From positions 5,345,600 to 5,409,599 of the forward strand of contig NC_134036.1 of NCBI RefSeq assembly GCF_964204645.1: 64,000 nt of DNA, given 5' to 3'. The notes under the pieces were generated by a model. The model saw nothing but the letters and a program-made list of their open reading frames with translations, was not told the DNA's origin and did not search any database. The DNA comes from Tubulanus polymorphus (taxonomy: Eukaryota; Nemertea; Palaeonemertea; Tubulaniformes; Tubulanidae). Shown piece after piece: positions 2,992 through 63,025 of the stretch; position 1 is the stretch's first letter, and each line of letters opens with the position of its first letter. A program made the translations under genes and the position numbers.

Positions 2992-5900
2992 ATGTTGTTC
3001 GGTGTGGAGCAGCGCCTGAGAGCGCTGTTTATTTCGTCGCTGATCGTCTGTCAAATTCGCATCGCGCGCGCTGATCGCGCAGACTCTATCGAGGAATCGT
3101 CTGTGACGGTAAGTTCGTCTTGTAACAATACGTGGTACCCGCTAGATTTTACGTCCGGTTACATCGTTTCACCGAATTACCCGTCGTTCACGCGCGGTGT
3201 TGAATGTCGTTGGTTCATCAACAGTTCTTTACCAGGAACTTTCTTCATCCAAACGAAATTCGATATCGAGCCGTCAATATTCTGTAGTGATAATTACTTC
3301 CTCGTCTACGAGTCTGATAACAGATTCTGTGGTGATGGAAAACATGAAATTCGCCGTAACGAATCGATCTCGTTGATGTTTAAGAGTAACGTCGATGGCG
3401 CACGAGGTAGTCGGGTTTATGTCATATATCGTTATGATCGAAGTCGATTGAGAATCAGCCACGGATGCGGGATCTGGAATTTTAAAGTGCACGAATTGGA
3501 AACATCGACCGGATACAAATTCACGATGTTCTTTCATCGCGGATGTCAGCTGTTCGTCGAATGGAACGGCATCCCGGATGGTTTTGCTATGAATTTCACA
3601 TTCGTTGATCTGGACCTTAAACTATATTATTTCGGTGGCGTCGATCCAGCGGTGAATTTTCGTATCTATGAAGGCTGGAACATCAGCAGTGAGCCGATAG
3701 CGCTTATAGGTGCACAGAGCGGACAACAGCCGTCATCGTTTTATACCAAAACAAACAAGGCATTGCTTTATGTGTTAAATCAACGCAAAACAACGACTGA
3801 ACTTTTAGTACAAATTTATAAAATATCAGATTGGAACGTATCTAATCCGTTGGTTCAGATCTCTAATAACAAGTCGGGAGTGCTCATTCCCGATGACAAC
3901 AGTTTACACGTAATAACTCGATCGAAACACCTACACTGCTGGTCTATCACAGTGCAGGTGTTACAGTACGTCGTCTTCAACTGGACACGTGATCTCGTCA
4001 TATCCAGTGACGTCATCGGTGTATATAAGTTAGAAGCGTTGCGCGTTGTAGGAACTGATATTTTACTCGGTTACAACTACCTGGAATCACTGAGTGTTAA
4101 ATCTGACGGCTTTCTCGTCATACTGTGTGTTTTAACGAGACCGAACATCACGGAATCGATTCTAAGGATAGACTTCAGAATGAAATCAATATCGATGTCT
4201 AAATTGCGCATCATTCTACCCAGAGTAGGTATCAGATCATTGATGCACTCATATTTACACTCCATCGACGGAGATTCGCAGCTATGATTTCTAATGAAAT
4301 GAATTATTCTTTTGCTCAAATATATAGATAGACAACAGATTAAAACTGTCTACGAAGTCGATGGCATTTTTTTCGCTGCTTCCATTTCCGACAAGGAAGT
4401 TGAATTATCGCGTCAACCTGTACAGATTCAAATGGAAAGTCGAAATCTACGACAGCGATCTACAATTGAAAATGGTGTCTGTGAATTGTGAAAATACCGG
4501 ATACTACATATACGACGGTGGTAATTTCACGGCTAGACGATACGGTCCGTATTGTCCTGGTTCATCGGGTTATCGACGAAGTGTCGTCAGTCTGATTACA
4601 TCAGGCGGCCCGGTCATCGTAGTAGGCTATATTTATAACAGTCGAAGCAAGCAACGGATGGCCAGCGGATCTTTAAAGTTACGTCCGACCGACTGTGACG
4701 GTTATACTCTGCGCGAAGGAGAAAACCGGGTAACAATGCCGCAGACGCCACGCTGTTTCAGGATTACACCAGAAAACCGAGCAGTTTTACTACATAAAAT
4801 TCACATATTATCACAGCGCGAATTTGAGATCAGCGGATGCAGGCGCGATAACAGAACATCGCGCACAGCATGTAGATATCAAATGGTTCTCAGTATTCAG
4901 CGTCTTAACAACAGTCTCGTACTGCACACTGTCGCATTTCGGAGGGCGGATTTCTTCTGGATAAGACCGTACTTCGTCGAATTGCGGCGCATTTGCCAAA
5001 CATTGAGAAAACATGCAGTAATATCTGACTGGTGGGAGCGAACTGAAGGCGATTGCGGAATCGTGCAGTCACCAAACTACCCAGGGTCATCTAACCCGTT
5101 ATCCGTTACGTTGGAATACTGGATCGAATTCCAAAATGTTCTGACCCGAATTCACTTTTACCGATTCGTCATCAAAACAATGGAAAAGACGTCTTGTATT
5201 AAAGAATCCAGATACAAACTGGAGTCCGTCGCGTTCGTCCAGGAAGTAAGTTACCAGAGCCGCACAGCCCGACACGTAATCAAACTGTGCGAAACGTTTG
5301 CCGAACCGGGAGTTACGTTTTACAGTTATATGAATATTAAGATGCGCATCGAGGTGAAAAACCGAGTACCCAAATTTCGCATACAGTACGTACTAGAGGA
5401 ACAGTTACCAATAAAACAGATTGAAAATGTCTGTAAAACGGGATATATTGATACGGGAATCACTTGCGTAAAACACATCAGCGATAAACGTCTAAATTGG
5501 GAGAATGCTGAATTGTATTGTAGACACAAATACGCGGGACATCTACTCAGTATAAACTCACAACAGGAAATAATGTCTATTAAAATATTATTCTCTACAA
5601 GGCCGCTCATCTTAGATGTGTATTCGCAGAAAGCGTTCATAATGATGATTGGGTTAAAACTGCAGGTACAGTACTGTATTCTAGCCCATAACCTAAACTG
5701 TACATAGAACACATTCGTAAATGTCCGAGGGTTACATTTTCAGCTTGTAAATGGTTATTACACGTGGACTGATGGAAAACCATTGAGCTACACAGAGTGG
5801 TATCAACCTACAAATAACGACACGATACCAGAAGTAATTCAAGGATTGATATCTCCTCTCAGAAAACAACCGATAAATGACGTCAATATGCCGTGTACGG

Positions 5901-8900
5901 CGATGATATTGAATAATCCACGAGGATCAGCGAACTGGGTTCGATTCCCCTGCGGAATCGAAGAGGTTCACACGAGTTTCATTTGCGAATCGGACAGAAT
6001 AAGTGTCAAAAATTTAACTGAGAGAGAAAGCAACTCAACCAATAAGGCGTCATCCGAAACTAATAAACAACACATTTTTAATTATAATACAGTAAATGCA
6101 ACTTGTACAATGGGTTGGTTAGGTATAGCTGGGAAATGTTACCAAATACTGACAGATTGGAACAAAAACCGAAGTTTAGATATTGGGAAATCAAGAAAAC
6201 TGTGTCATGGAATCCGCGGTGAAGTCGGTTTGATACAGGATCTGATGCACCTTCAAATATTGATTGGTAGATTTAATTATCGGCACCACTATGGCGCTAT
6301 TCTAACTATCGGTTTTTGGAATCAATGGTTGAAAATAAAACCGTTTGTTACCAGGGATGAAATTACTTATAATCATTCGACTAATTGGGCATTGATACCG
6401 TGGCATAATCAATCAGATACAGTGCATTCTGTTTTGTGTTCATACAATGTAACTGATGAAGAGTTAGCTTCTATAAGCGGTTGTAAATCGTGGCAGTTTA
6501 AATGTAACGATCAAAGATGTATCAGTGACCATCGCGTATGTGATACCAGACACGACTGTCGACACGGTGAAGATGAACTTAATTGTACAGATATTAATTT
6601 ACACAGTCAGTTTCAATGCAATTATGGACAGATTATATCAGTTAGTGGTTTCTGTGATTTCATACAGGATTGTGTGGATGGTTCTGATGAAAACGCATGT
6701 TTTCATCCTCCGTGTTTGTCCGAACAATTTCGCTGCCAAAATGGTCAATGTATCAGTATTTCTAAGAGATGCGATGGATTCACTGATTGTAAAGACGGCT
6801 CCGATGAAATTGGATGCACTTCTCAAATGTGTCAAGGATTCCTGTGTAACAGTGGAGACTGTATCAGTTCTCAGTTGTATCAGGATGGTGTCGTAGATTG
6901 CAGTGGAAGCCTCGAAGAAGATGAATTAGTAACAGCTACTAATGTTTCAGTGAATCCTACTGTTTATTGCAACAATAGGAACCACTGTACGACTAACTTC
7001 ACTAATTACTGCATTGAATCTGATGAACAAAGATGTTCTTTCAATTCTCCTCATTGTTATTCAAGACGTCACAGATGTATTCTAGAAAGAATGACGAATG
7101 GTTACCCAGTTTGTCGAAATCTCGAGCACGTGTTAAGATGTGAAGATTTTGAATGTCCAGCTGGTACTGTAAAATGTCCAGCATCGTACTGTATACCGAT
7201 CAGACAGGTGTGCGATGGTCAATCAGATTGTCCTAATTCAGAAGATGAACAAAACTGCGAGACGTTTTCATGTCCGGGAATGTTTAAATGTGGCCACGAA
7301 AATCGATGTATCCCACAATTTGAAGTTTGCGATGGTGTCATAACTTGTAAACATAAAACTGATGACGAGGCTTTCTGTAACGTAACCTGCCGTGAAGGTT
7401 GTGTGTGTCAAGGTTATTTGATCGATTGCCGAAATGCTGGTTTAACAAATATTACTGATCTTTTCTCGGCATCAACTCGAGTTTTAGTTTTGTCGAATAA
7501 CGAAATTACCTTAGACATGTCGACATTCCTTTCATATAACTATTTGCGCATGCTCAACATCTCTTCCAATGAATTGTCTAATATTTTACCTAAATCGTTC
7601 TCAAACCTGCATAATCTACAGACATTAGATCTTACACGCAACGACATCACATCATTATCTGCAAATACATTCATCGGGTTGAATAATTTGAAAGAGTTAT
7701 TGATTACTGAAAATCCAATACGTCATTTGGAGGACGAAACCTTCCAAGATTTGAAGTCACTTAAAGTTCTCGACCTCCACGAACTTTCGTTGTTGGTGCT
7801 TGGTAGAAACGTATTTCGAGGTTTATCTACATTACAGTCGTTGAATATCAGCTATAACAGAATCCATCATATTTCGCTTTACGCATTTTCTGGATTAACT
7901 TCACTTGAAATTCTTGATATAACCAACAACTTAAAAGTTATTTCTGTCGACAGAAATGTTTTCCACAATCTGACAGCATTGGTCTCCGTAAAGTCTGATG
8001 CTTACAAATTTTGCTGCATGGCTCCGAATGTTGACCAGTGCCTTCCGGAAGCTGACCAATTTTCCTCCTGTTCCGATCTGATGGGTAACACAGTCCTCAG
8101 AGCTATCATTTGGGTCATCGCTTCATTCAGTTTTATCGCTAACGGAATTGTCATTTCTCTTCGCATTCGAGCGATTCGATTCTCCTCCTCAAATCCTTCT
8201 TCAGACATCATCATCATTAATATCGCTGTGTGTGATTTTATGATGTCTATATATTTATTTGTGATCGCTGGGGCTGATTATACTTATAAAGGTATCTACT
8301 TTCTCAATTCAGAATCATGGACGGACAGTGCATTTTGTCGTCTAGCTGGAGTCGTGGTCACTATTTCTTGTGAAGGTTCGTTAATATTTTTGCTCATCAT
8401 GACACGTCATAGATTCTCAATTATAGTTAATCCATTTTCTGGGAGCCCGATTACATCTCCGAGATATGTGTGCATCATTTGTTGCACATGTTGGATCGTT
8501 TTGTGTGTTATTGCATCGCTACCTCTTACATCTATCTCTTACTTTGGGGACAATTTCTATGGCAGAACTGGAGTTTGTTTACCAATGAATTTAATTTCAA
8601 TTGACGTCAACGCCTGGCAATATTCATTCGCTATTTTTTCATTATCCAACTCATTCATACTCGCTACGATAATGGCGACTTATACGCAATTGTACCGACT
8701 CGTATCTGGAAGTAGGTCTGGCTCGGGTCGAATTGACCCTACAGAACTAGTTTTGGCACGCAGGAGTTTGGTGATAAATCTTTGCAATTTATTTTGCTGG
8801 CTGCCGTTAATTATCGTTCAGTTTTGCGTGGTATTTCGGGTAGAAATACCGAATCAGGTGGCGGCTTGGCTGGCGGTTCTTTTCTTACCGATCAACTCGT

Positions 8901-8992
8901 CCCTCAATCCCCTTCTTTACACAATACTGACTATCGATATGAAATCCATACGAGCAAAAACTAAACGCAGGCAACAACGAACGGATAAATGA
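2992..8992 (+). CDS. CUB/C-type lectin/LDLa/LRR 7TM receptor, copy 1 (A type)
   Basis: Exons are 2992-4224, 4328-5665 and 5744-8992. Donors are AGA|GTAGGT and CAG|GTACAG, acceptors ATAG|ATA and TCAG|CTT, both introns phase 0; the protein is 1,939 aa. In order: signal peptide (1-27, ending ARA); CUB with Cys44/72/98/113; CUB-like beta-sandwich sequence to about 650; CUB beginning CGIVQSPNYPG; CTLD (about 780-940) split by intron 2; degenerate CTLD (978-1089); LDLa modules 1104-1402, the fourth degenerate; LRR N-cap about 1406-1420; about seven LRRs to 1605; Cys hinge 1614-1633; 7TM about 1641-1920. GPCR landmarks are N1657, D1688, Cys1722/Cys1802, CWLP 1875-1878 and NPLLY. The DRY position reads HRF (1746-1748). 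The hinge and 7TM resemble GRL101/relaxin-type LGRs. The expected role is a plasma-membrane receptor; ligand and G protein are unknown. ATG 2992 is the only usable start, since the second conserved Met codon is GTG here. Confidence 0.88.
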
Positions 8993-9142
8993 AATAGCAC
9001 AGAGTGGTTGGTATATATCGCCAGTCAAAACCATGCTTCGATTTTATTTTCTGTCGGGGATATTTTATACTAAATCATCATTCTATACTCTATACACCCC
9101 CTTATTTTTGCATTGTTCTCTTTTCGTCGTTTTTTCGCATGC

Positions 9143-9148
9143 AATAAA
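9143..9148 (+). terminator. Poly(A) signal, copy 1
   Basis: AATAAA lies 151 bp after the stop codon, in the context GCATGCAATAAATT. The same context is kept after copies 2 and 5. Further AATAAA motifs occur near 9415-9426. Confidence 0.5.
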
Positions 9149-13984: not shown

Positions 13985-16900
13985 ATGTTGTTCGGTATGG
14001 AGCAGCGACTGAGAGCGCTGTTTATAGCGTCGCTGATCGTCTGTCAAGTTCGCATCGCGCGCGCTGATCGCGTAGACTCTATCGAGGAATCGTCTGTGAC
14101 GGTAAGTTCGTCTTGTAACAACACGTGGTACCCCGTAGATTCCACGTCCGGTTACATCATTTCACCGAATTACCCGTCGTTAACGCGCGGTGTTGAATGT
14201 CGTTGGTTCATCAACAGCTCTTTACCTAAGACTTTCAACGTCCAAGTTTACTACGACATCGAGCCGTCAATATTCGGTAGTGATAACTACCTTCTCGTCT
14301 ACGAGTCTGATTACAGATTGTGCGGTGATGGAAAACATGAAATCCGCCGTAACGATTCGATCTCGTTGATTTTTAGGAGTCATGTCGATGGTGCGCGAGG
14401 TAGTAGGGTTTATATCACATATCGTTATGAACGAAGCCGATTGAGAATCAGTCATAACTGCAGGAAATATAATTGCGATTTGAATAAATTGCAAACGTCG
14501 AAGGGATACAAATACAAAATAAAAAGGCTAGTGGGTTGTCGGTTGTACCTGGAATGGATCGGGATGCCCGATGGTTGTGCTCTTAACTTGACTTTTACAA
14601 AATTAGATTACAGAATATCCTCTCTTATTGCACCAATAACAGTCAACGATGGATGGAACATCAGCAGTGAACCTATTCGTATTATACGAGAACAAAGCGG
14701 ATATCCAGCTTTTTCATTTTATACTAAAACAAATAAAGCCATAATCTCGTCGCTACATCGCCCAAGGGTGTTTCGATCACAGCTTTTAGTTCAGAAGTAC
14801 AAAATATCAGATTGGAACGTCTCTAATCCGTTGATTCAGATCTCTAATAACGAGTCGGGAGTGCTCATTCCCGATGCCAACAGTTTACACGTAATAACTA
14901 TATCAAAACACTTACACTGCTGGTCTATCACAGTGCAGGTGTTACAGTACGTCGTTTTCAACTGGACACGTGATCTCGTCACATCCGGTGACGTCATCGG
15001 TGTATATAAACAAGAAGGGTTACGCGTTGTGGAAACTGATATTTTACTCGGATACAACTACCTGGAATCACTGAGTCTCAAATCTGACGGTTTTCTTGTT
15101 GTACTATGCGCTCTGAAAGCAAAACTTCACGATAATGAAACATTTGAAATAAACTATGAAATCGAATTTATTTCGATGGAGAATATCAAGGTCTACAACC
15201 CTCGGGTGAGTTAAATTCGTGAAATTATTTAACTCCGTATGAAAATAATTTAAGTCAACAAATATGTATGATGCACTTAAAATGGGCTTTTTTATAACTA
15301 GGTACCGGGGAACGCAATGTGGTCTATGACGCCGTCCATGCTGTTTCCAAGAAGAACAAAGCTCCATTTAAATTATCGCATCACTAGATACGAGTTTAAT
15401 GGGAAAGTTGATATTTATGAAGAGAATATGGAACTAACAGTTTTATCAGAGAACTGCGAGCGAGCTGGATTTTACATATTCGACGGTGGTAATTTCACGG
15501 CTAGACGATACGGTCCATATTGTCCTCGTTTATGGAGATACGGCCGTAACGTCGTCAGTCTGATTACATCAGGTGGATCGGTTACTGTAGTAGGATACGC
15601 TTATAACTGGGATGATCAGTTAACAGTCGATAAGGATTCGCGCCTAGGATTTCGTGCTACCGACTGTGACGGGTATGTTCTAAAGGAAGGAGAACGTCAG
15701 ATCAATGTGACGTCTGACTGCATCTCGATAACACCTGAAAACCGACGCCTCCCGTTAAAAAACATTTACATTTGGTCCAAACACGAATATCGAGTTGATT
15801 CTTGTATTATCGATAAAAGATTCGCGACCGATAGATGCATGTTTCGACTGAACCTCCAGTTTACCAATAACGGACTTGTTTTACAAACGGTGGATTTTAG
15901 GCTCGTAAGACCCTTCCGCGTGGAGCCGTTGTTTGTGAAACTACGCCGTAAATGTATGGCATTGAAAAAGCCCGATAAGCTTACAGATACTACCTGGCAA
16001 ACACCGGAATGCGGGTTAGTGCAGTCAATGAACTATCCCGGATCAGCGCCATACCAGTCAGAACGTAAAACATACAATTTAGAATTCAGACCTAATCCGT
16101 TGCAGATTCGATTTTACAGATTCGTTTTCAAATACATTCAGGTAATACCCTGCGAGAAATCATCCTTGGGGGACAAAGATCATATTTTGTTTATACAGAT
16201 AATGCATTATTTCATAACAACCGGGCGAATTGTAGAGACTCAATACACGACAACAATATGCGGTAAAATGGCCATATTGGGAACTGTTTTTTATAGCCTG
16301 TCCAATTCGAGGCTGAGTTTTCAGGTGGAAAATAATATACCAACCTTTCAAATACAATACACGGTTATTCATTCATTATTAGAGAAACAGATGAAAAATG
16401 TCTGTAAATCGGGATTTCTAGATTCGGGAATTTCATGCGTAAAATACATCAGAGATAAACGTCTGAATTGGGAGAATGCAGAATTGTATTGTAGACAGAA
16501 GTACTCGGGACATCTACTCAGTATCAACTCAGAACGGAAAATGATTAATATAAAAACATTATTCGCAACAAAGTTTCTTCAACAGGCATATTCACAAAAA
16601 GCGCTCATAGTGATGATTGGGTTAAAACTGCAGGTAAGTTTGAAACACCGTTCGTAAGTTCTAAGTTTGTAAATATAATGTTAGTTCCGGAAGTTTATTC
16701 TTTCTTTGTTTCGTAGCCCAATACCGGTTATTACACGTGGTCTGATGGGAAACCATTGAGCTTCACAGAGTGGTATAAACCTACAAATAACGACACGATA
16801 CCAGAAGTTATTCGAGGATTGATATCTCCTCTCAGAAAACAACCCATAAATGACGTCAATATGCTGTGTACGGCGATGATACTGAATAATCCACGAGGAT

Positions 16901-19900
16901 CAGCGAACTGGGTTCGATTCCCCTGCAAAATCGAAGAGGTTCACACGAGTTTCATCTGTGAAACAGAAAGAACCGATATCGAAAATAGAACATTTAGAAC
17001 GATGAGTTCAACAAAAAATAACAAATCTTTGATACGGGAAAACATGTCAAAAGATAATAGTTGCACGGTTGGATGGTTACGTATGAATAAACAATGCTAT
17101 CAAATACTGACAGACTGGAAAAATCATCGAGGTTTGGATATAAAAATTGCAACTGAGATGTGTCGAGACATCCGAGGTGAAATAGGCGAGATATTAACTG
17201 GTTACACAGAAAAGAAAACTTCGAACTTGATAAGAACATTTCAATATCAACATCAATATAGCTCTATCCTAACGATGGCATCTAATGACCGACTGCAAGT
17301 TATAAACCCAATAATCACTAGAGATGAAATTACTTATATTAAATCAGTCAAATGGACGACGAAACAGTTCGATAATGCGACAGATACAGCGCATTCTGTT
17401 TTGTGTTCCTACAATGTAACTGTTGAAGAGTTAGCTTCTGTAAGCGGTTGTAAATCGTGGCAGTTTAAATGTAACGATCAAAGGTGTATCAGCGACCAAC
17501 GCGTATGTGATACCAGACACGACTGTCAACACGGTGAAGATGAACTCAATTGTACGGATATCAATTTACACAGTCAGTTTCAATGCAAAGATAGTCAGAT
17601 TATATCAATAAGTGGATTCTGTGATTTCATACAAGATTGTGCGGATGGTTCCGACGAGAAATCGTGTTTTCATCCCCCGTGTTTGTCCGGAGAATTCCGC
17701 TGTATCAGTGGTCAATGCGTCATCAGGTCAAACAGATGTGACGGTGTTGCTAATTGTAAAGACGGATCAGATGAAATCGAATGCATTGCTGAAATGTGTC
17801 AGGGGTTTCTGTGTAACAGTGGAGACTGTCTTAGTTCTCAGTTGTATCAGGATGGTGTCGTGGATTGTAGTGGAAGCCTTGAAGAAGATGAATTAGTAAC
17901 AACTATTAATTTTACAGTGAATCCTACTGTTCTTTGTAATACTGAAAACGACTGTACGACTAACTTCACAAATCTCTGTACAGAATCTGATGAACAAAGA
18001 TGTTCTTTCGATTCTCCTCACTGTTATTCTAGACGTCACAGATGTATTCTAGAAAGAATGACGAATACTTTCCCAGTTTGTAGAAATCTTGAGCACGTAT
18101 TGAGATGTGAAGAATTCGAATGTCCAGCTGGTACTGTAAAATGCCCAGCATCGTACTGTATCCCGATCAGACAGGTGTGCGATGGTCAGTCGGATTGTCC
18201 TAATTCAGAAGATGAGCAAAACTGCGAGACATTTTCATGTCCAGGAATGTTTAAATGTGGCAACGAAAATAGATGTATTACACAATCTGAAGTTTGCGAT
18301 GGTGTCGTAAATTGTAAATATACAACTGATGACGAGGCTTTCTGTAACGTCACCTGTCTGAGAGGTTGTAAGTGTCAAGGTCATCTGACCGAGTGTAGAA
18401 ATACTGGTTTAACAAACATTACCGGTCTTTTCTCGGCATCAACTCGAGTTTTAATTTTGTCGAATAACGAAATTACCTTAGACATGTCGACATTCCTTTC
18501 ATATATCTATTTGCGCATGCTCAACATCTCCGCCAATGAATTGTCTTATATTTCACCTAAATCGTTCTCAAACCTGCATAATCTACATACATTAGATCTT
18601 ACACACAACAACATAACATCATTACCTGCAAAAACATTCATCGGTTTGTATAGTTTGAAAGAGTTATTGATTACTGAAAATCCAATACGTCATTTACACG
18701 ATGATACCTTCCAAGATTTGAAGTCACTTAAAGTTCTCGACCTTCACGAACTTTCGTTGTTGGTGCTTGGTAGAAACGTATTTCGAGGTTTATCTACATT
18801 ACAGTCGTTGAATATCAGCAATAACAGAATCCATCATATTTCGCTTTACGCATTTTCTGGATTAACTTCACTTGAAATTCTTGATATAACCAACAACTAC
18901 AAAGTTATTTCTGTCGACAGAAATGTTTTCAACAATCTGACATCATTGGTCTCCTTAAAGTCTGATGCTCACAAATTTTGCTGCATGTCTCCGAATGTTG
19001 ACCAGTGCCTACCGGAAGCTGATCAATTTTCCTCCTGTTCTGATCTGATGGGTAACACAGTCCTCAGAGCTATCATTTGGGTCATTGCTTCATTCAGTTC
19101 CATCGCTAACGGAATTGTCATTTCACTTCGCTTTCGAGCGATTCGATATTCCTTCTCAAATCCATCTTCAGATATCATCATCATTAATGTTGCTGTTTGT
19201 GATTTCATGATGTCTATATATTTGTTTCTGATCGCTGGAGCCGATTACATTTATTCTGGCATTTACTTTCTAAATTCGGAATTATGGATGGATAGTCCAT
19301 TTTGTCGTCTTGCTGGGATCACGGTGTCTATCTCTTGTGAAGGTTCATTGATATTTTTGCTCATCATGACACGTCATAGGTTCACAAATATCGTTAATCC
19401 ATTTTCAGGAAGTGCAATTACATCTCCTAGATATGTGTGCGCTATTTGCTGCACATCTTGGATTATTTTGTGTGCTATTGCATTGCTACCTCTAACACCT
19501 ATCCCTTACTTCGGAAACAATTTTTACGGTACAACCGGAGTTTGTTTACCTATGAATCTAATTTCAATCGATGTCAATGCCTGGCAATATTCATTCGCTA
19601 TTTTTTCATTATCCAACTCCTTCATACTTACTACGATAATGGCGACTTATGCGCAAATGTACCGACTCGTTTCAGGAAGCAGGTCTGGTTCTGGTAGAAT
19701 TGACCCTACAGAACTGATTTTGGCACGTCGGAGTTTGGTGATTAATCTTTGTAATTTATTTTGCTGGCTGCCGTTAATTATCGTTCAGTTTTGCGCGGTA
19801 TTTCGGGTTGAAATACCGAATCAGGTGGCGGCTTGGCTGGCGGTTCTTTTTTTACCGATCAACTCGTCCCTCAATCCCCTTCTTTACACAATACTGACTA

Positions 19901-19959
19901 TCGATATGAAATCCATACGAGCAAAAACTAAACGCAGGCAACATCGAACGAATAAATGA
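13985..19959 (+). CDS. CUB/C-type lectin/LDLa/LRR 7TM receptor, copy 2 (B type)
   Basis: Exons are 13985-15205, 15302-16633 and 16717-19959. Donors are CGG|GTGAGT and CAG|GTAAGT, acceptors CTAG|GTA and GTAG|CCC, phase 0; the protein is 1,931 aa. Domain order is that of copy 1. Exon 1 is B type (VQVYYDIEP, KLQTSKGYKY), and exon 2 starts VPGNAMWSMTP rather than the A-type IDNRLK. Oddity: the third CUB1 cysteine (residue 98, codon 14276-14278) is Gly. The protein also has two cysteines at NCRKYNC shortly after CUB1, so disulfide pairing may be rearranged. The LRR-to-TM5 region is nearly the same as in copy 5, which points to gene conversion or recent common origin. The TM3 motif is HRF (19375-19383). 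The tail ends RRQHRTNK. All frames are open and the gene looks intact. Confidence 0.88.
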
Positions 19960-24083: not shown

Positions 24084-24088
<5 letters not shown>

Positions 24089-24170: not shown

Positions 24171-24174
<4 letters not shown>

Positions 24175-31100: not shown

Positions 31101-31156
31101 ATATGAAGTCCATACGAGCAAAAACAAAACGCAGGCAACATCGAACGAATAAATGA
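25195..31156 (+). CDS. CUB/C-type lectin/LDLa/LRR 7TM receptor, copy 3 (B type)
   Basis: Exons are 25195-26415, 26511-27839 and 27917-31156, with donors CGG|GTGAGT and CAG|GTAAAT, acceptors CTAG|GTA and GTAG|CCC, phase 0; the protein is 1,929 aa. Exon 2 begins VSVNAMWSMTPFM. The domains are those of copy 1. The four CUB1 cysteines are kept, but the first cysteine just after CUB1 is Gly (codon 25669-25671: SHNGRKYNC where copy 2 has SHNCRKYNC). The LRR block (ELTLETSTFFSYVYLRM) is shared with copy 4 and differs from copies 1, 2, 5 and 6. The 7TM extracellular loop YLYKDDYFLYSESW is of the copy 4/6 kind, yet the tail ends RRQHRTNK like copies 1, 2 and 5, so this gene is a mosaic. The TM3 motif is HRF (30572-30580). 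No disruption was seen. Confidence 0.88.
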
Positions 31157-42600: not shown

Positions 42601-42632
42601 AAACTAAACGCAGGCTTCATCGAAAAGATTGA
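36698..42632 (+). CDS. CUB/C-type lectin/LDLa/LRR 7TM receptor, copy 4 (B type)
   Basis: Exons are 36698-37903, 38000-39325 and 39396-42632, with donors CGG|GTGAGT and CAG|GTAAAT, acceptors CTAG|GTA and GTAG|CCC, phase 0; the protein is 1,922 aa, the shortest copy. The start is the second conserved Met (MEQRLRALFIASLIVCQ), because the upstream one is lost; the signal peptide remains complete. CUB1 keeps its four cysteines. The LRR block is that of copy 3. The TM3 sequence is MVTSYRF, so the DRY position is YRF (42051-42059) and the usual preceding Arg-His is gone. The C-terminus is RRLHRKD and the 3' flank is the alternative kind shared only with copy 6. Domain order is otherwise as in copy 1 and the frames are open. 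Confidence 0.87.
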
Positions 42633-45561: not shown

Positions 45562-48500
45562 ATGTTGTTCGGCATGGAGCAGCGACTGAGAGCGCTGTTT
45601 ATAGCGTCGCTGATCGTCTGTCAAGTTCGCATCGCGCGCGCTCATCGCGCAGATTCTATCGAAGAATCGTCTGTGACGGTAAGTTCGTCTTGTAACAACA
45701 CGTGGTACCCGCTAGATTCTACGTCCGGTTACATCGTTTCGCCAAATTACCCTTCGTTCACGCGCGGTGTTGAATGTCGTTGGTTCATCAACAGTTCTTT
45801 ACCGGGAACTTTTCACGTCCAAACGAAATTCGATATTGAACTGGCAGTATTCTGTAGTGATAACTACCTTCTCGTCTACGAGTCTGATAATAGATTCTGC
45901 GGTGATGGAAAACATGAAATCCGCCGTAACGATTCGATCTCGTTTATGTTCAAGAGTAACGTCGATGGCGCACGAGGAAGTCGAGTTTATGTCGTATATC
46001 GTTACGAACGAAACCGATTAAGGATCAGTCCGATAGGAAATTTTAAGGTGCACGAATTGAAAACATCGACCGGATACAAATTTACGATGTTCTTCTACCG
46101 AGGATGTCAGCTGTTCGTCGAATGGAACGGCATCCCGGATGGTTTGGCGATGAATTTGACCTTCGTAGAGTTGAACGTTAGGCTTTTCTCTGGTTCTAGC
46201 ATCGATCCAGCCTCAAGTTTTCGAATCTATGATGGCTGGAACAGTAGCAGTGAACCGATAACGCTTATAGGCGTACAGAGCGGACAACAGCCGTCATCGT
46301 TTTATACCAAAACTAACAAGGCAATGATTTCTGTAACGAATCAACGCGACACTACGACGAAACTTTTAATCCAGACGTACAGAATATCAGATTGGAACGT
46401 CCCTAATCCGTTGATTCAGATCTCTAATAACGAATCGGGAGTGCTCATTCCCGATGACAACAGTTTATACGTAATAACTCGATCGAAACACTTACACTGC
46501 TGGTCTATCACAGTGCAGGTGTTACAGTACGTCGTCTTCAATTGGACACGTGATCTCGTCATATCCGGTGACGTCATCGGTGTTTATAAACAAGAAGGGT
46601 TACGAGTTGTAGGAACTGATATTTTACTCGGTTACAACTACCTGCAATCACTGAGTGTTAAATCTGACGGATTTCTCGTCATACTGTGCGTTCTAACGAG
46701 GTTGAATATAACACAATCGAATGTGAGAATACACTTCATAAGGATATCAACATCGATGTCAGAATTGCGCATCTTTAAACGCAGGGTAAGTGTCAAATTA
46801 TGGATGCTCTTTAAGTCAAACCTGAACGGATGAGCTTCGCACCTATAGCAGTCAATTGATAAAATGAATTAATATTGCCCACAAATCGCATGTATATTTA
46901 GATAGATGACAAACTGAACACGATGTCGCTGGCACATTACTTGCTGCTTCCACGTCCAACGAGGAACTTGAGGTATCATGTATTTCTGTTTGAATTCAAA
47001 TGGAAAGTTGAAGTCTATGAGAAGAAACTGGAATTAACGGTGCTGTCTGTGAATTGTGAAAATTCTGGATTCTACATATACGACGGTGGTAATTTCACGG
47101 CTAGACGATACGGTCCGTATTGTCCCGGTTCATTAGGTTATCTGCGAAGTGTCGTCAGTCTGATAACATCAGGTGGACCAGTTATCGTAGTAGGATATAT
47201 TTATAACTGTCAGAGAAAGCGGATAGCAAGTGGCTCTTTAGATTTACGTGCGACTGAATGTGACGGTTTTACTCTTAGGGAAGGAGAACACCGGGTGACA
47301 GTGCAGACGTCGAACTGTTTCAGGATTACACCCGAAAACCGAGTTCGATTACGTAGAGTTTACGTATTTTCAAAGAACGAATATGAAATTGGTGGGTGCA
47401 CGCCGGATTATACGGAACCTCTCAGGAGATGTAGATTTTTGATGCCTCTTAGTATTCAGCGTCTCAATAGCAGTCTCATACTGCACACTGTCACAATCAG
47501 ACCGACTTATTTGTTCTGGTTACACCCGTTTATCGTTGAATTGCGGCGTGTCTGCCAAACATTAAAAAGGCCTAATACATTCTTCTACGGCGGGTCGCAG
47601 ATGCGAAGAGAAGTTCACTGCGGAATCGTGCAGTCACTGAATTATCCAAGATCTGCCCCAACTTTAACTGTTACATTGAAATACAGAGTCCAGGTCTTTT
47701 CATTTCAAAGCCGAATTCAGTTTTTCCGATTCATCATCAAAACAATGGAAAAGACGTCGTGCATCAAGGATTCCCAGAACGAACTAGAATCCGTCACGTA
47801 CATCCAGGAAGTTATTTATTCATCCACTGCCCAACACAGAATAAAACTATGCGACAAGTTTGCTGAACCGGGAGATACATTTTACAGTTTACTTGAAATA
47901 GGAATGTGGTTCGAGGTGAAAAACCGAATTCCCAAATTTAAGATACAATACGTCTTACAGAATCAGTTACCGGTGAAAACTTTAAGTAATGTTTGCAAAT
48001 CGGGATTCCTAGATTCGGGGAATTCATGCGTAAAATACATCAGAGATGAACGTCTGAATTGGGAGAATGCTGAATTGTACTGTAGACAGAAGTACGCGGG
48101 ACATCTACTCAGTATCAACTCAGAACAGGAAATGATTGCTATTAAACGATTATTCGCCACAAGACATCTGTTATTCAAAGCATACACGCAGAAAGCGCTG
48201 ATAATGATGATTGGACTAAAGAAACAGGTAATGTAGAACTGTACGTCACCCCGAATTTTGATGGCTCTTTTTTCAAAGTTAAGATTTTCAAGTATTTATT
48301 TACAGTCGAGAGCGGGTTTTTACACGTGGACTGATGGAAAACCATTGAGCTACACAGAGTGGTATAAACCTACAAATAACGACACGATACCAGAAGTTAT
48401 TCAAGGATTGATATCTCCTCTTAGAAAACAACCGATAAATGACGTCAATATGCCGTGCACGGCGATGATACTGAATAATCCACGAGGATCAGCGAACTGG

Positions 48501-51500
48501 GTTCGATTCCCATGTGAAATCGAAGAGGTTCACACGAGTTTCATTTGCGAAACGGAAAGAGATGATTTCGAAAATACAACAGTTAAAACGTTAAATATAA
48601 CGAAAAACAACACAATTCTGATACGTAAAAAATCGTTTCATGAAACCGGTTTCAATGAGGCGAGCTGTGTGTTTGGTTGGGTAAGCATAAATAAACAATG
48701 CTATCAAATACTGACGGACTGGAACAAACATCGAGGTTTAGATATGATAACGGCGACGGAGATGTGTGACGAAATCCGAGGCAAAATAGCCAACGTTATA
48801 ACCAGTTGCAAAGAAAACGAAACAATGAACTTGATATCGAAATTTAACTTTCAACATCAATATAGCTCCATACTTTTTATGACATATAATGACCCACCAC
48901 TAGTTTTAAAACCAATAACCACTAGAGATGAAATTACTTATGTCAAATCAGTTAAATGGATGATGAAACAGTTTGATAATGCGACAGATACAGCGCATTC
49001 TGTTTTGTGTTCATACAATGTAACTGATGAAGAGTTAGCTTCTATAAGCGGTTGTAAATGGTGGCATTTTAAATGTAACGATCAAAGATGTATCAGCGAC
49101 CATCGCGTATGTGATACCAGACACGACTGTCAACATGGTGAAGATGAACTCAATTGTACGGATATCAATTTACACAGCCAGTTTCAATGCGATACAGGTC
49201 AGGTTATATCAATAAGTGGTTTCTGTGATTTCATACAAGATTGTGCAGATGGTTCTGATGAGAACTCGTGTTTTTACCCCCCGTGTTTGTCCGAACAATT
49301 TCGGTGCGTAAGTGGTCAATGTGTCAGTAGGTCTTACAGATGCGATGGAGTCACTAATTGTAAAGACGGCTCCGACGAAATCGGTTGCACTTCTGAGCAA
49401 TGTCAAGGGTTCCTGTGTAAGAGTGGAGATTGCATCAGTTCTCAGTTGTATCATGATGGTGTTGTGGATTGTAGTGGAAGCCTTGAAGAAGATGAATTAG
49501 TAACAACTACTAATATTACAGTGAATCCTACGATCCATTGTAATGACGAAAACCATTGTACCACTAACTTTACAAATCTCTGTACGGAATCTGATGAACA
49601 AAGATGTTCTTTTAATTCTCCTCATTGTTATTCAAGACGTCACAGATGTATTCTAGAAAGAATGGCAAATGGTTTCCCAGTTTGTAGAAATCTTGAGCAC
49701 GTATTGAGATGTGAAGAATTTGAATGTCCAGCTGGTACTGTAAAATGTCCAGCATCGTACTGTATACCGATCAGACAGGTGTGCGATGGTCAATCAGATT
49801 GTCCTAATTCAGAAGATGAGCAAAACTGCGAGACATTTTCATGTCCAGGAATGTTTAAATGTGGCCACGAAAATAGATGTATTATACAATCTGAAGTTTG
49901 CGATGGTGTCGTAAATTGTAAATATACAACTGATGACGAGGCTTTCTGTAACGTCGACTGTCTGAGAGGTTGTAAGTGTCAAGGTCATCTGACCGAGTGT
50001 AGAAATACTGGTTTAACAAACATTACCGGTCTTTTCTCGGCATCAACTCGAGTTTTAATCTTGTCGAATAACGAAATTACATTAGACATGTCGACATTCC
50101 TTTCATATATCTATTTGCGCATGCTCAACATCTCCGCCAATGAATTGTCTTATATTTTACCTAAATCGTTCTCAAACCTGCATAATCTACATACATTAGA
50201 TCTAACACACAACAACATAACATCATTATCTGCAAAAACATTCATCGGTTTGTATAGTTTGAAAGAGTTATTGATTACTGAAAATCCGATACGTCATTTA
50301 CAGGACGATACCTTCCAAGATTTGAAGTCACTTAAAGTTCTCGACCTTCACAAACTTTCGATGTTGGTGCTTGGTAGAAACGTATTTCGAGGTTTATCAA
50401 CATTACAGTCGTTGAATATCAGCTATAACAGAATCCATCATATTTCGCTTTACGCATTTTCTGGATTAACTTCACTTGAAATTCTTGATATAACCAACAA
50501 CTACAAAGTTATTTCTGTCGACAGAAATGTTTTCAACAATCTGACATCATTGGTCTCCTTAAAGTCTGATGCTTACAAATTTTGCTGCATGGCTCCGAAC
50601 GTTTACCAGTGCCTTCCGGAAGCTGATCAATTTTCCTCCTGTTCTGATCTGATGGGTAACACAGTCCTCAGAGCAATCATTTGGGTTATTGCTTCATTCA
50701 GTTCCATCGCTAACGGAATTGTCATTTCACTTCGCATTCGATCGATTCGATTTTCCTCCTCAAATCCATCTTCAGATATCATCATCATTAATGTTGCTGT
50801 GTGTGATTTCATGATGTCTATATATTTGTTTCTGATCGCTGGAGCCGATTACATTTATTCTGGCATTTACTTTCTCAATTCGGAATTATGGATGGATAGT
50901 CCATTTTGTCGTCTTGCTGGGATCACGGTGTCTATCTCTTGTGAAGGTTCATTGATATTTTTGCTCATCATGACACGTCATAGGTTCACAAATATCGTTA
51001 ATCCATTTTCAGGAAGTGCAATTACATCTCCTAGATATGTGTGCGCTATTTGTTGCACATCTTGGATTATTTTGTGTGCTATTGCATTGCTACCTCTAAC
51101 ACCTCTCCCTTACTTCGGAGACAATTTTTACGGTACAACCGGAGTTTGTTTACCGATGAATTTAATTTCAATTGAAGTCAATGCCTGGCAATATTCATTA
51201 GCTATTTTTTCATTATCCAACTCATTCATACTCACTACGATAATGGCAACGTATGTACAAATGTACAGACTCGTATCTGGAAGTAGGTCTGGTTCGGGTA
51301 GAAGTGACCCTACAGAATTAGTTTTGGCACGCAGGAGTTTGGTGATAAATCTGTGTAATCTATTTTGCTGGCTGCCGTTAATTACCGTTCAGATTTGTGC
51401 GGTATTACGGGTGGAAATACCGAATCAGGTGGCTGCTTGGCTGGCGGTTCTTTTCTTACCGATCAACTCGTCCCTCAATCCCCTTCTTTACACAATACTG

Positions 51501-51563
51501 ACTATCGATATGAAATCCATACGAGCAAAAACTAAACGCAGGCAACATCGAACAGATAAATGA
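45562..51563 (+). CDS. CUB/C-type lectin/LDLa/LRR 7TM receptor, copy 5 (A type, mosaic)
   Basis: Exons are 45562-46785, 46902-48227 and 48306-51563, with donors AGG|GTAAGT and CAG|GTAATG, acceptors TTAG|ATA and ACAG|TCG, phase 0; the protein is 1,935 aa. Exons 1 and 2 are A type but diverged from copies 1 and 6. A three-residue deletion near 46026-46041 removes the cysteine following CUB1 (SPIGNFK against SHGCGIWNFK). The linker and degenerate second CTLD are a third variant, distinct from copies 1/6 and 2/3/4. From LDLa6 to about TM5 the protein follows copy 2 (CDGVVNCKYTTDDEAFC, LRGCKCQGHL), and the last stretch (TVQICAVLRVEIP) follows copy 6. The TM3 motif is HRF (50979-50987). Domain order is as in copy 1 and the gene is intact. 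Confidence 0.88.
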
Positions 51564-56796: not shown

Positions 56797-56917
<121 letters not shown>

Positions 56918-57030: not shown

Positions 57031-60000
57031 ATGTTGTTCGGTATGGAGCAGCGACTGAGAGCGCTGTTTATATCGTCGCTGATCGTCTGTCGAGTTCGCA
57101 TCGCGCGCGCTCATCGCGCAGACTCTATCGAGGAATCGTCTGTGACGGTAAGTTCGTCTTGTAACAATACGTGGTACCCGCTAGATTCTACGTCCGGTTA
57201 CATCGTTTCACCGAATTACCCGTCGTTAACGCGCGGTGTTGAATGTCGTTGGTTCATCAACAGTTCCTTACCGGGAACTTTCTTCATCCAAACGAAATTC
57301 GATATTGAGCTGTCGGTATTCTGTAGTGATAACTACTTTCTCGTCTACGAGTCTGATACCAGATTCTGTGGTGATGGAAAACATGAAATTCGCCGTAACG
57401 AATCGATCTCGTTGATGTTTAAGAGTAACGTCGATGGCACGCGAGGCAGTCGGGTTTATGTCATATATCGTTATGATCGAAGTCGATTGAGAATCAGCCA
57501 CGGATGCGAGATCCGGAATTTTAAAGTGCATGAATTGAAAACATCGACCGGATACAAATTCACGATGTTCTTTCATCACCGATGTCAGCTGTTCTTCGAA
57601 TGGAACGGCATCCCGGATGGTTTTGCTATGAATTTCACATTCGTTGATCTGGACCTTAAACTATATTATTTCGATGTCGTCGATCCAGCGGTGAATTTTC
57701 GTATCTATGATGGCTGGAACATCAGCAGTGAGCCGATAGCGCTCATGGGTGCACAGAGCGGACAACAGCCGTCATCGTTTTATACCAAAACAAACAAGGC
57801 ATTGATTTATGTGTTAAATCAACGCAAAACAAGGACTGAACTTTTAGTACAAATTTATAAAATATCAGATTGGAACGTCTCTAATCCGTTGGTTCAGATC
57901 TCTAATAACGAGTCGGGAGTGCTCATTCCCGATGATAACAGTTTACACGTAGTAACTCGATCGAAACACCTACACTGCTGGTCTATCACAGTGCAGGTGT
58001 TACAGTACGTCGTCTTCAACTGGACACGTGATCTCGTCATATCCGGTGACGTCATCGGTGTATATAAGTTAGAAGCGTTGCGCGTTGTGGGAACTGATAT
58101 TTTACTCGGTTACAACTACCTGGAATCACTGAGTGTTAAATCTGACGGCTTTCTCGTCATGCTGTGTGTTTTAACGAGACCGAACATCACGGAATCGATT
58201 CTAAGGATAGACTTCAGAATGAAATCAATATCGATGTCTAAATTGCGCATCATTCTACCCAGAGTAGGTATCAGATCATTGATGCACTCATATTTACACT
58301 CCATCGACGGAGATTCGCAGCTATGATTACTAACGAAATGAATTATTCTTTTGCTCAAATATATAGATAGACAACAGATTCAAACTGTCTACGAAGTCGA
58401 TGGGATTTTTTTCGCTGCTTCCATTTCCAACAAGGAAGTTGAATTATCGCGTCAGCCTGTACAGATTCAAATGGAAAGTTGAAATCTACGACAGCGATCT
58501 ACAATTGAAAATGGTGTCTGTGAATTGTGAAAATACCGGATACTACATATACGACGGTGGTAATTTCACGGCTAGACGATACGGTCCGTATTGTCCTGGT
58601 TCATCGGGTTATCGACGAAGTGTCGTCAGTCTGATTACATCAGGCGGCTCGGTCATCGTAGTAGGCTATATTTATAACAGTCGAAGCAAGCAACGGATGG
58701 CCAGCGGATCTTTAAAGTTACGTCCGACCGACTGTGACGGTTATACTCTGCGCGAAGGAGAAAACCGGGTAACAATGCAGAAGCCACGCTGTTTCAGAAT
58801 TACACCAGAAAACCGAGCAGTTTTACTACATAAAATTCACATATTATCACAGCGCGAATATGAGATCAGCGGATGCAGGCGCGATAACATAACATCGCGC
58901 ACAACATGTAGATATGAAATGCGTCTCAGTATTCAGCGTCTCAATAACAGTCTCGTACTGCACACTGTCACATTCCGGAAGGCGAATTTTATCTGGATAG
59001 GACCGTACTTCGTCGAATTGCGGCGCATTTGCCAAACATTGAGAAAACATGACGAAAAATTTAACTGGAGGGAAGGAACTGAAGGCGATTGCGGAATCGT
59101 GCAGTCACCAAACTACCCAGGGTCATCTAACCCGTTATCCGTTACGTTGGAATACTGGATCAAATTCCAAAATGTTCTGACCCGAATTCACTTTTACCGA
59201 TTCGTCATCAAAACAATGGAAAAGACGTCTTGTATTAAAGAATCCAGATACAAACTGGAGTCCGTCGCGTTCGTCCAGGAAGTAAGTTACCAGAGCCGCA
59301 CTGCCCGACACGTAATCAAAATATGCGAAACGTTTGCTGAACCGGGAGTTACGTTTTACAGTTATATCAATATTAAGATGCGCATCGAGGTGAAAAACCG
59401 AGTACCCAAATTTCGCATACAGTACGTACTAGAGGAACAGTTACCAATAAAACAGATTGAAAATGTCTGTAAAACAGGATTTATTGATACGGGAATCACT
59501 TGCGTAAAATACATCAGCGATAAACGTCTGAATTGGGAGAATGCTGAATTGTACTGTAGACAGAAGTACGCGGGACATCTACTCAGTATCAACTCACAAC
59601 AGGAAATAATGTCTATTAAAACATTATTCTCTACAAGGCCGCTCATCTCAGATGTGTATTCGCGGAAAGCGTTCATAATGATGATTGGGTTAAAACTGCA
59701 GGTACAGTTCTGTATTCTAGGTCAAAACCTTAACTGTATATAGAACACATTCGTAAATATATCAGGGTTACATTTTCAGCTTGTAAATAGTTATTACACG
59801 TGGACTGATGGAAAACCATTGAGCTACACAGAGTGGTATGAACCTACAAATAACGACACGATACCAGAAGTTATTCGTGGATTGATATCTCCTCTCAGAA
59901 AACAACCCATAAATGACGTCAATATGCTGTGTACGGCGATGATACTGAATAATCCACGCGGATCAGCGAACTGGGTTCGATTCCCCTGCGGAATCGAAGA

Positions 60001-63000
60001 GGTTCACACGAGTTTCATTTGCGAATCGGACAGAATAAGTGTCAAAAATTTAGCTGAGAGAGAAAGCAACTCAACCAATAAGGCGTCATCAGAAACTAAT
60101 AAACAACACATTTTTAATTATGATACAGTAAATGCAACTTGTACAATGGGTTGGTTAGGTATAGATGGGCAATGTTACCAAATACTGACAGATTGGAACA
60201 AAAACCGAAGTTTAGATATAGGGAAATCAAGAAAACTGTGTCATGGAATCCGCGGTGAAGTCGGTTTGATACAGGATCTGATGCACCTTCAAATATTGAT
60301 TGGTCGATTTAATTATCGGCACCACTATGGCGCTATTCTAACTAAGGGTTTTTGGAATCAGTGGTTGAAAATAAAACCATTTGTTACCAGGGATGAAATT
60401 ACTTATAATCATTCGATTAATTGGGCATTGATACCGTGGCATAATCAATCAGATACAGCGCATTCCGTTCTGTGTTCATACAATGTAACTGACGAAGAGT
60501 TAACTTCTATAAGCGGTTGTAAATCGTGGCAGTTTGAATGTAACGATCAAAGATGTATCAGTGACCATCGCGTATGTGACACCAGACACGACTGTCGACA
60601 CGGTGAAGATGAAATTAATTGTACGGATATAAATTTACACAGTCAGTTTCAATGTAATGATGGACAGATTATATCAGTAAGTGGTTTCTGTGATTTCATA
60701 CAGGATTGTGTGGATGGTTCTGATGAAAACGCATGTTTTCATCCTCCGTGTTTGTCCGAACAATTTCGCTGCCAAAGTGGTAAATGTATCAGTATTTCTA
60801 ACAGATGCGATGGATTCACTAATTGTAAAGACGGCTCCGATGAAATTGGATGCACTTCTCAAATGTGTCAAGGATTCCTGTGTAACAGTGGAGACTGTAT
60901 CAATTCTCAATTGTATCAGGATGGTGTCGTAGATTGCAGTGGAAGCCTCGAAGAAGATGAATTAGTAACAGCTACTAATGTTACAGTGAATCCTACTGTT
61001 TATTGCAACAATGAGAACCACTGTACCACTAACTTCACTAATTTCTGCATTGAATCTGACGAACAAAGATGTTCTTTCAATTCTCCTCATTGTTATTCAA
61101 GACGTCACAGATGTATTCTAGAAAGAATGACAAATGGTTACCCAGTTTGTAGAAATCTTGAGCACGTATTGAGATGTGAAGAATTTGAATGTCCAGCTGG
61201 TACTGTAAAATGCCCAGCATCGTATTGTATACCGATCAGACAGCTGTGCGATGGTCAGTCAGATTGTCCTAACTCAGAAGATGAACAAAACTGCGAGACG
61301 TTTTCATGTCCGGGAATGTTTAAATGCGGCCACGAAAATCGATGTATCCCACAATTTGAAGTTTGCGATGGTGTCATAAGTTGTAAACATAAAACTGATG
61401 ACGAGGCTTTCTGTAACGTAACCTGCCGTGAAGGTTGTATGTGTCAAGGTTATTTGTTCGATTGCCGAAATGCTGGTTTAACAAATATTACCGATCTTTT
61501 TTCGGCATCAACTCGTGTCTTAATTTTGTCGAATAACGAAATTACATTAGACATGTCGACATTCCTTTCATATATCTATTTGCGCATGCTCAACATCTCT
61601 TCCAATGAATTGTCTAATATTTTACCTAAATCGTTCTCAAACCTGCATAATCTACATACATTAGATCTTACACACAACAACATAACATCATTATCTGCAA
61701 AAACATTCATCGGTTTGTATAGTTTGAAAGAGTTATTGATTACTGAAAATCCAATACGTCATTTACAGGACGATACCTTCCAAGATTTGAAGTCACTTAA
61801 AGTTCTCGACCTTCACGAACTTTCGTTGTTGGTGCTTGGTAGAAACGTATTTCGAGGTTTATCTACATTACAGTCGTTGAATATCAGCAATAACAGAATC
61901 CATCATATTTCGCTTTACGCATTTTCTGGATTAACTTCACTTGAAATTCTTGATATAACCAACAACCACAAAGTTATTTCTGTCGACAGAAATGTTTTCA
62001 ACAATCTGACATCATTAGTCTCCCTTATGTCTGACCATTACAAATTTTGCTGCATGGCTCCGAATAATGACCAGTGCCTTCCCAAAGCTGATGAATTTTC
62101 CTCCTGTTCTGATCTGATGGGTAACACAGTCCTCAGAGCTATCATTTGGGTCATCGCGTCATTCAGTCTTATCGCGAACAGTATTGTCATTTCTCTGCGC
62201 GTTCGTGCGATTCGATCATCCCCTTCAAATCCATCTTCCGATATCATCATCATTAATGTCGCTGTGTGTGATTTTATGATGTCTATATATTTGTTTCTGA
62301 TCGCTGGAGCCGATTATCTTTATAAAGATAATTACTTTCTCTATTCCGAATCGTGGACGGACAGTTTGTTTTGTCGTCTTGCTGGGATCACGGTGTCTGT
62401 TTCTTGTGAAGGTTCATTGATATTTTTGCTTATCATGACACGTTATAGGTTCACAAATATCTTAAATCCATTTTCAGGAAGTGCAATTACATCTCCCAAA
62501 TATGTGTGCATTATTTGTTGCACATGTTGGATTGTCTTGTGTGTCATTGTATTAGTACCTCTTACACCTTTCCCTTACTTTGGAGACAATTTCTACGGCA
62601 GTACAGGAGTTTGTTTACCGATGAATTTGATTTCAATCGATGTGAATGCCTGGCAATATTCATTCGCTATTTTTGCTGTGTTTAACTCTGGCATACTTGC
62701 AACGATAATGGCGACTTATGCGCAAATGTTCAGACTCGTATCAGGAAGCAGGTCTGGTTCTGGTAGAGCTGATCCTACCGAATTGGTTTTGGCACGCAGG
62801 AGTTTGGTGATAAATCTTAGTAATCTATTTTGCTGGCTGCCGTTAATAACCGTTCAGATTTGCGCGGTATTACGGGTAGAAATACCGAATCAGGTGGCGG
62901 CTTGGCTGGCGGTTCTTTTCTTACCGATCAACTCGTCCCTCAATCCCCTTCTTTACACAATACTGACTATCGATATGAAATCCATACGAGCAAAAACTAA

Positions 63001-63025
63001 ACGCAGGCTTCATCGAAAAGATTGA
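57031..63025 (+). CDS. CUB/C-type lectin/LDLa/LRR 7TM receptor, copy 6 (A type N-terminus, copy-4-like C-terminus)
   Basis: Exons are 57031-58263, 58367-59701 and 59780-63025, with donors AGA|GTAGGT and CAG|GTACAG, acceptors ATAG|ATA and TCAG|CTT, phase 0; the protein is 1,937 aa. Exons 1-2 and the first two thirds of exon 3 closely follow copy 1, including the copy-1-specific linker (ERESNSTNKASSETNKQHIF). From about 62020 (SLMSDHYKFCCMAPN) the hinge, 7TM, tail (RRLHRKD) and 3' flank follow copy 4. The TM3 motif is YRF (62444-62452). One Cys before TM6 is Ser (INLSNLFCWLP against INLCNLFCWLP). The 5' region joins a B-type spacer at the (TA)n tract. This is a clear recombinant gene with all frames open. 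Confidence 0.88.

Follow-up and report, generated by a model that had tools for sequence, protein, structure and literature searches.

Leucine-rich-repeat-containing G-protein-coupled receptors (LGRs) are usually regarded as a handful of hormone receptors. Activation of RXFP1 requires its LDLa module, possibly in the role of a tethered agonist (PMC4561518). A cluster of related receptors was described in 2025 for the snail Biomphalaria sudanica, where 12 GRL101-like genes lie in SudRes2, a 440-kb region associated with schistosome resistance; 10 of the 12 have leucine-rich repeat (LRR), LDL and C-type lectin (CTL) domains, and the validated resistance variant sits in a neighbouring Zn-RING-IAP gene (PMC12297450). 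Here we describe a 64,000-nucleotide stretch of the genome of the palaeonemertean Tubulanus polymorphus (contig NC_134036.1, positions 5,345,600 to 5,409,599; hereafter the window), which holds six tandem genes for receptors that join a CUB domain, a C-type lectin-like domain (CTLD), LDLa modules and LRRs to a class A seven-transmembrane domain (7TM). These six belong to a family of about 300 loci. On balance we lean towards regarding the family as lineage-specific, type C LGR-like receptors in which tandem duplication and segmental exchange give an immune or chemosensory recognition repertoire.

The six genes occupy positions 2992 to 63025, head-to-tail on the plus strand. In each, the three coding exons measure about 1.2, 1.3 and 3.2 kb and are separated by two GT-AG introns, both in phase 0 and 70-116 bp long, and the predicted proteins of 1,922-1,939 residues have no internal stop in any of the six copies. 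Residues are numbered below after copy 2.

2992..8992, plus strand: copy 1, exons 2992-4224, 4328-5665 and 5744-8992, 1,939 residues; open exons, GT-AG phase-0 junctions, Pfam matches to CUB, LDLa, LRR and 7tm_1
13997..19959, plus strand: copy 2, exons 13997-15205, 15302-16633 and 16717-19959, 1,927 residues; open exons, junctions, Pfam matches
25207..31156, plus strand: copy 3, exons 25207-26415, 26511-27839 and 27917-31156, 1,925 residues; open exons, junctions
36698..42632, plus strand: copy 4, exons 36698-37903, 38000-39325 and 39396-42632, 1,922 residues; open exons, junctions
45574..51563, plus strand: copy 5, exons 45574-46785, 46902-48227 and 48306-51563, 1,931 residues; open exons, junctions
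57043..63025, plus strand: copy 6, exons 57043-58263, 58367-59701 and 59780-63025, 1,933 residues; open exons, junctions

The original prediction, made from the window alone, of six intact tandem copies is borne out by these gene models. As a count, six holds for the window; the array runs past both of its edges, with further copies starting at C12:5339052 (broken) and C12:5412230, and the six make up about 2% of the family loci. Their proteins are 70-92% identical in pairs. Copies 1 and 6 are closest to each other; copies 2, 3 and 4 group together at 84-87%, with copy 5 separate at 72-78%. At the start of copy 1 (2992-3003) a V stands at the point where the other copies begin MEQ, and an in-frame ATG four codons upstream (MLFG) is used instead.

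To follow the domains through the family, we assembled a set of 22 genes, namely the six of the window and 16 intact ones from elsewhere in the genome. Pfam places 7tm_1, LDLa (Ldl_recept_a) and LRR_8 in exon 3 of all 22 (E <= 0.01). A CUB domain is found in exon 1 of 21/22 (E <= 0.1; best 4e-8), the match lying above the curated Pfam cut-off in copy 1 and below it in copy 2, and a profile of exon 1 matches cubilin in the PDB (3kq4, E 1.2e-14) and also MASP-1. The first part of Lectin_C is recognised at the end of exon 2, again in 21/22 (E <= 0.1; best 2e-4); in spliced copy 2 the match spans the exon 2/3 junction (residues 790-872, E 7e-7), while the exon-3 piece alone stays below the cut-off (E 0.12). 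Among solved structures, RXFP1 (7tmw, E 4e-73) is the best match to the LRRs and 7TM of copy 2, and the hinge of copy 2 can be aligned with that of RXFP1 as well. LRRs and a class A 7TM within one exon, as in all 22 genes, make these receptors LGRs by definition, and the LDLa modules N-terminal to the LRRs (22/22), together with the short hinge, are the domain arrangement of type C. The proposed combination of CUB, CTLD, LDLa, LRR and 7TM in one protein of about 1,930 residues is therefore supported by Pfam and PDB profiles, with a single CUB domain and a single CTLD per protein and with each domain in 21 or 22 of the 22 genes. In copy 2 the parts are arranged as follows.

14114..14446, plus strand: CUB domain, residues 40-150 (Pfam CUB in 21/22; cubilin profile match)
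15803..16402, plus strand: hypervariable exon 2 segment, residues 571-770 (by entropy; median proportions of differing non-synonymous and synonymous sites, pN and pS, 0.41 and 0.69; apart from the CTLD, exon 2 is without a match in Pfam or the PDB)
16403..16959, plus strand: CTLD split by intron 2, residues 771-928, in exon 2 to 16633 and in exon 3 from 16717 (Lectin_C)
16960..17325, plus strand: hypervariable segment, residues 929-1050 (by entropy; a second CTLD-like Cys pattern, by eye only)
17431..17895, plus strand: LDLa repeats 1-4, the fourth degenerate (Pfam Ldl_recept_a, four exon-3 stretches pass)
18181..18420, plus strand: LDLa repeats 5-6 (Pfam plus Cys pattern; the total of six is counted by Cys pattern)
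18421..19005, plus strand: leucine-rich repeats (LRR_8 in 22/22)
19108..19887, plus strand: class A 7TM (7tm_1 in 22/22; RXFP1 as best solved relative)
19375..19383, plus strand: HRF at the E/DRY position, residues 1734-1736

The three exons are by far most likely to belong to one gene and one transcript. Twenty further copies, on eight contigs, were picked by hand from the exon-1 matches, a choice that favours well-kept exons 1 like that of copy 2 and so gives no random estimate; in 20/20 the exons keep the same order and strand. This constancy, the matching intron phases and the lectin domain split by intron 2 argue for a single transcript, as the original prediction had assumed. The shared order and the split domain speak against the alternative of one gene for exons 1-2 and another for exon 3. 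By gene model 16/20 of these copies are intact, and 4/20 carry a frameshift or a stop.

Exon-specific DNA signatures were derived from 26 copies (the four broken ones included) and counted across the assembly, which comprises 267.8 Mb in 77 contigs; by flow cytometry, worms named Tubulanus polymorphus have genomes of 313 Mb (Pacific) and 358 Mb (Atlantic) (PMC8468679). With up to three mismatches allowed, the signatures occur 311 (185+126), 306 (186+120) and 311 (189+122) times for exons 1, 2 and 3, respectively, and the reversed patterns used as controls 0 times for each. In addition, a protein search of the genome with exon 1 gave at least 103 scored matches from 372 first-look candidates, 102/103 of them without stops, and for 67/77 of the perfect exon-1 sites listed on contigs C4, C5, C6 and C8, a perfect exon-2 site is listed too, on the same strand and 1-4.5 kb further downstream. 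The estimate of about 300 loci is thus well supported; among the copies sampled, 16/20 elsewhere and 6/6 in the window are intact. Haplotype duplication in the assembly is disfavoured, as the 22 copies are 64-94% identical.

Among the matches listed, many copies are arrayed on C6, C9, C10, C11 and C12; contigs C3, C4, C5 and C8 hold further ones. The listed arrays lie within 17.6-22.1 of 23.0 Mb on C6, 2.2-4.8 and 15.7-16.3 of 16.5 Mb on C9, 0.6-3.6 of 14.3 Mb on C10, 1.0-1.2 of 14.0 Mb on C11 and 3.7-8.5 of 11.5 Mb on C12. Some of them lie towards contig ends; the C12 array and the single copies at 13.2 Mb on C9 and 9-11 Mb on C8 do not.

The 22 proteins have a median identity of 71% (range 64-94%), and the differences between them are unevenly spread. 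Entropy is low in the CUB domain, residues 271-360, the CTLD, the LDLa modules and TM6-7, and high in residues 151-270, 361-450, 571-750 and parts of 931-1050. The median synonymous difference per segment ranges from 0.16 to 0.69 across the 22 genes, a variation that plain descent does not predict, although part of the high synonymous signal in the variable segments may be alignment error. Domain trees also conflict, so that the copies look mosaic: among 12 strong splits in the exon-1 tree, strong splits in the trees of other parts contradict 7 (7TM), 6 (LRR), 4 (residues 929-1090) and 2 (exon 2). Copies 2 and 5 illustrate this, as their DNA is 96-99% identical over residues 1354-1773, yet only 47-52% identical over residues 584-759, where copy 2 resembles copy 3 instead (84-92%). 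Segmental exchange or gene conversion would account for the conflicting trees and for the patchy identity and synonymous differences, and the results support divergence of the copies as mosaics by one of these routes.

Selective constraint was estimated from pooled pN/pS ratios, which are 0.23 for the 7TM, 0.24 for the LDLa modules and 0.47-0.62 for four variable segments. Ratios above 1 are confined to single pairs: 1/231 for residues 151-270, 2/231 for residues 361-450 and, among the window copies, 1/15 for the signal segment. There is constraint throughout, weaker in the variable parts, and positive selection is not demonstrated. These figures bear on the view that the family is a largely inert expansion, spread by unequal crossing-over, mostly unexpressed and open only because it is young. 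Broken copies in 4/20 of a sample that favoured well-kept ones would fit such a history, as would the finding of a single short family model from the same species among the protein search matches (P0103, 689 residues, 'uncharacterized protein'). However, 16/20 sampled and 6/6 window copies are intact over about 1,930 codons at a median identity of 71%, and this intactness, taken with the low ratios in the 7TM and LDLa, indicates sustained constraint; we regard inertness as very improbable. The single model suggests that the family is poorly annotated. The absence of other models is not proved by the protein searches, which rely on length and on words in common and were run against a database clustered at 90%.

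How such receptors might work can be proposed from their two halves. The membrane-distal half, of about 1,080 residues, consists of the CUB domain, the CTLD and the hypervariable segments. Sugar-binding C-type lectins carry EPN or QPD and WND motifs for calcium and sugar. The sites that we judge equivalent read EWYKPTNND in 9/22 proteins (variants in the rest) and ANWVRFPC in 18/22, without EPN, QPD or WND. The distal half would bind external ligands, perhaps microbial, prey or conspecific surface molecules; their capture would change the unit formed by LDLa, LRRs and hinge and so activate the 7TM, much as in RXFP1, the LDLa precedent on which we base this path. The 7TM would in turn couple to G proteins. 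Tandem duplication and segmental exchange would keep the signalling half uniform and vary the recognition half. The ligands would be foreign or environmental. A pattern-recognition or chemosensory role with G-protein signalling, as first suggested for the window genes, is plausible.

A purely chemosensory reading would place the receptors on sensory cells, one or a few per cell, where they would sense prey or mates through cues that are dissolved or met by contact. The size of the family is like that of chemoreceptor expansions, but CUB/lectin-like ectodomains of about 1,000 residues are unusual for receptors of small molecules. The published comparisons are a starfish GRL101-like receptor that is enriched in sensory tentacles relative to tube feet (PMC6267866), which speaks for sensory function, and the nearest published cluster, which is tied to parasite resistance (PMC12297450) and speaks against it. 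We consider the purely chemosensory role possible, though rather unlikely.

Several observations weigh against a G-protein-coupled repertoire built by duplication and exchange. First, the canonical E/DRY motif of class A GPCRs is absent: the position reads HRF in 17/22, YRF in 3/22 and QRF or QRY in 2/22, so that the acidic residue is lost in 22/22, and coupling to G proteins may differ as a result. Second, AlphaFold models of exons 1 and 2, made from the six copies, are unusable (predicted local distance difference test scores of 33 and 31), leaving much of the distal half without an assigned fold. Third, the LDLa tree contradicts only 1/12 of the strong exon-1 splits and the CTLD tree, with just two strong splits itself, 0/12. 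Finally, no segment reaches a pooled pN/pS of 1 (range 0.23-0.62), and diversifying selection has left no direct sign; of the predicted 'selection for a diversified receptor set', the diversity stands, and segmental exchange with it, while the selection is not demonstrated.

The first of these points also speaks for a different account, in which the receptors are decoys or modulators that bind ligand with no G-protein coupling, D/E3.49 having been lost. Position 3.49 is non-acidic in all 22 proteins, against D or E in 21/21 aligned homologues (in one of which, P0009, the adjoining Arg is Cys), and the tail is very short, with only some 20-30 residues counted from the start of NPLLY. On the other hand, R3.50 is kept, NPLLY is found in 22/22 and CWLPL, CWMPL or CWLPI in 22/22, so that the NPxxY and CWxP motifs of class A are present, and TM6-TM7 belongs to the best-conserved parts, residues 1741-1770 just past the DRY site being less so. 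We therefore judge the decoy account improbable; the receptors likely couple to G proteins, if perhaps atypically.

The regions around the recognisable domains yielded little else. Convincing Pfam or PDB matches are lacking for about 620 residues in exons 1-2 and for the first 160 or so of exon 3, and the N-terminal half has no protein-database relative at E<=10 among 3139 candidates, in a search that reaches proteins of similar length with shared exact words. A second CTLD, suggested by eye, finds no Pfam support in any of three copies searched for it. Further CUB domains within exons 1-2, another idea formed by eye, are unsupported by Pfam and PDB profiles; an hhalign test missed even the known CUB that served as its positive control and so carries no weight either way. 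Exon 1 gave weak matches to a HigB-like toxin (3/22, best E 0.038), DUF3876 and an integron cassette family, and the copy 2 segment after the lectin domain gave one to CagA_N (E 0.019); all were taken as chance.

Between the window genes, the spacers are mutually related, so the duplication unit includes them. They have no Rfam match at gathering cut-offs, and outside the exons the window has no stop-to-stop open reading frame of 200 residues or more (spacer frames of 90-156 residues are present and were left out of the searches); no other genes or RNAs were thus found between the copies. Two spacers contain long TA dinucleotide runs, at 24083-24171 and 56789-56914, and the run in spacer 5 gives a self-complementary stretch.

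The architecture itself is not confined to Tubulanus. By best Pfam stretch, CUB, CTLD, LDLa, LRR and 7TM follow one another in the same order in predicted proteins of the molluscs Haliotis rufescens (P0001) and Ylistrum balloti (P0006) and of the echinoid Lytechinus pictus (P0007), as well as in a protein of unstated species, P0008. The expectation that it was uncharacterised thus fails in part, given these public sequences and the published CTL-LDL-LRR-GPCR cluster. P0001, P0006 and P0007 share the linear order with the nemertean family and are 35-38% identical to the nemertean protein over 32-43% of its length; the two mollusc proteins add ApeC and F5/8C, the urchin protein F5/8C, kringle and EGF, and all three, unlike the nemertean proteins, have longer tails and D or E at 3.49. 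A long cytoplasmic tail follows residue ~2113 of P0001 and ~2256 of P0006; by eye it resembles a degenerate kinase, and Pfam calls no Pkinase there. In the sea anemone Actinia, P0022 has the same modules in a different arrangement, with a Pfam Pkinase in its tail (3095-3207). The nemertean family lacks the kinase-like tail of several relatives. Two proteins from ENA, P0104 and P0014, have models that by eye begin near the start of the family's exon 3 and run on through LDLa, LRR and 7TM; D is retained at 3.49 in both. P0104 opens with what resembles the latter half of a lectin domain, where Pfam calls no Lectin_C. Both may be relatives that share the intron position and whose models miss the first exons.

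With the domain combination known in predicted proteins, the interest shifts to the size of the family and its mosaic outer parts. In the open PubMed Central literature (which excludes preprints and most subscription journals) we recognised no LGR family of such size, nor the same family or architecture in nemerteans, so that, as far as could be found, a set of some 300 loci that combine uniform signalling parts with mosaic, hypervariable outer parts is undescribed. Such a family would make it directly testable whether an animal can build a large non-self or chemosensory repertoire on LRR-GPCRs, and the snail cluster linked with resistance to schistosomes could be seen in its context. The family also cautions that large recent families can escape annotation.

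Compared with known systems, the family shares LDLa, LRR, short hinge and 7TM with RXFP1 and RXFP2, type C1 LGRs whose ligands are hormones; these have no CUB/lectin half and are few genes. Relaxin receptors have one LDLa (PMC4561518), against six here by Cys pattern. With GRL101 of Lymnaea the family has LDLa, LRR and 7TM in common. A separate GRL101-like model from T. polymorphus, P0017, has neither CUB nor CTLD in its precomputed Pfam annotation, and its DRY position reads IDR. In trees it joins P0012, P0015 and P0106 in a GRL101 group (100/100; Lymnaea GRL101 itself not included) that excludes the nemertean family, which is therefore not orthologous to GRL101 in the strict sense; the family forms a separate long-branched clade whose position among the remaining relatives is not resolved. 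These comparisons bear on the view that the nemertean proteins are endocrine receptors for insulin/relaxin-like peptides, as are RXFP1/2 and, by proposal, GRL101. The closeness of their LRR and 7TM to RXFP1 among solved structures would agree with it, as would Veenstra's proposal of insulin-like growth factor as the GRL101 ligand (PMC8286064). However, some 300 loci are far above the numbers of hormone receptors, and P0017 groups with other GRL101 proteins and not with the family; an endocrine role is accordingly a slim prospect.

SudRes2 resembles the nemertean family most closely: both are clustered paralogous LRR-GPCRs with C-type lectin and LDL domains, poorly annotated and with a proposed recognition role, a match by description and not by sequence (PMC12297450). 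They differ in scale, 12 genes in one region against about 300 loci on many contigs, and the word CUB is absent from the main text of the SudRes2 paper. In its most far-reaching form, which we put forward tentatively and consider unlikely, the nemertean family would be a recognition repertoire of about 300 GPCR loci, with exchangeable hypervariable CUB/lectin-type heads on a uniform signalling chassis. Gene conversion would diversify it, and each cell or individual might express a selection of the copies, which would make it the G-protein equivalent of the large Toll-like receptor (TLR), scavenger receptor cysteine-rich (SRCR) or variable lymphocyte receptor (VLR) repertoires in other animals.

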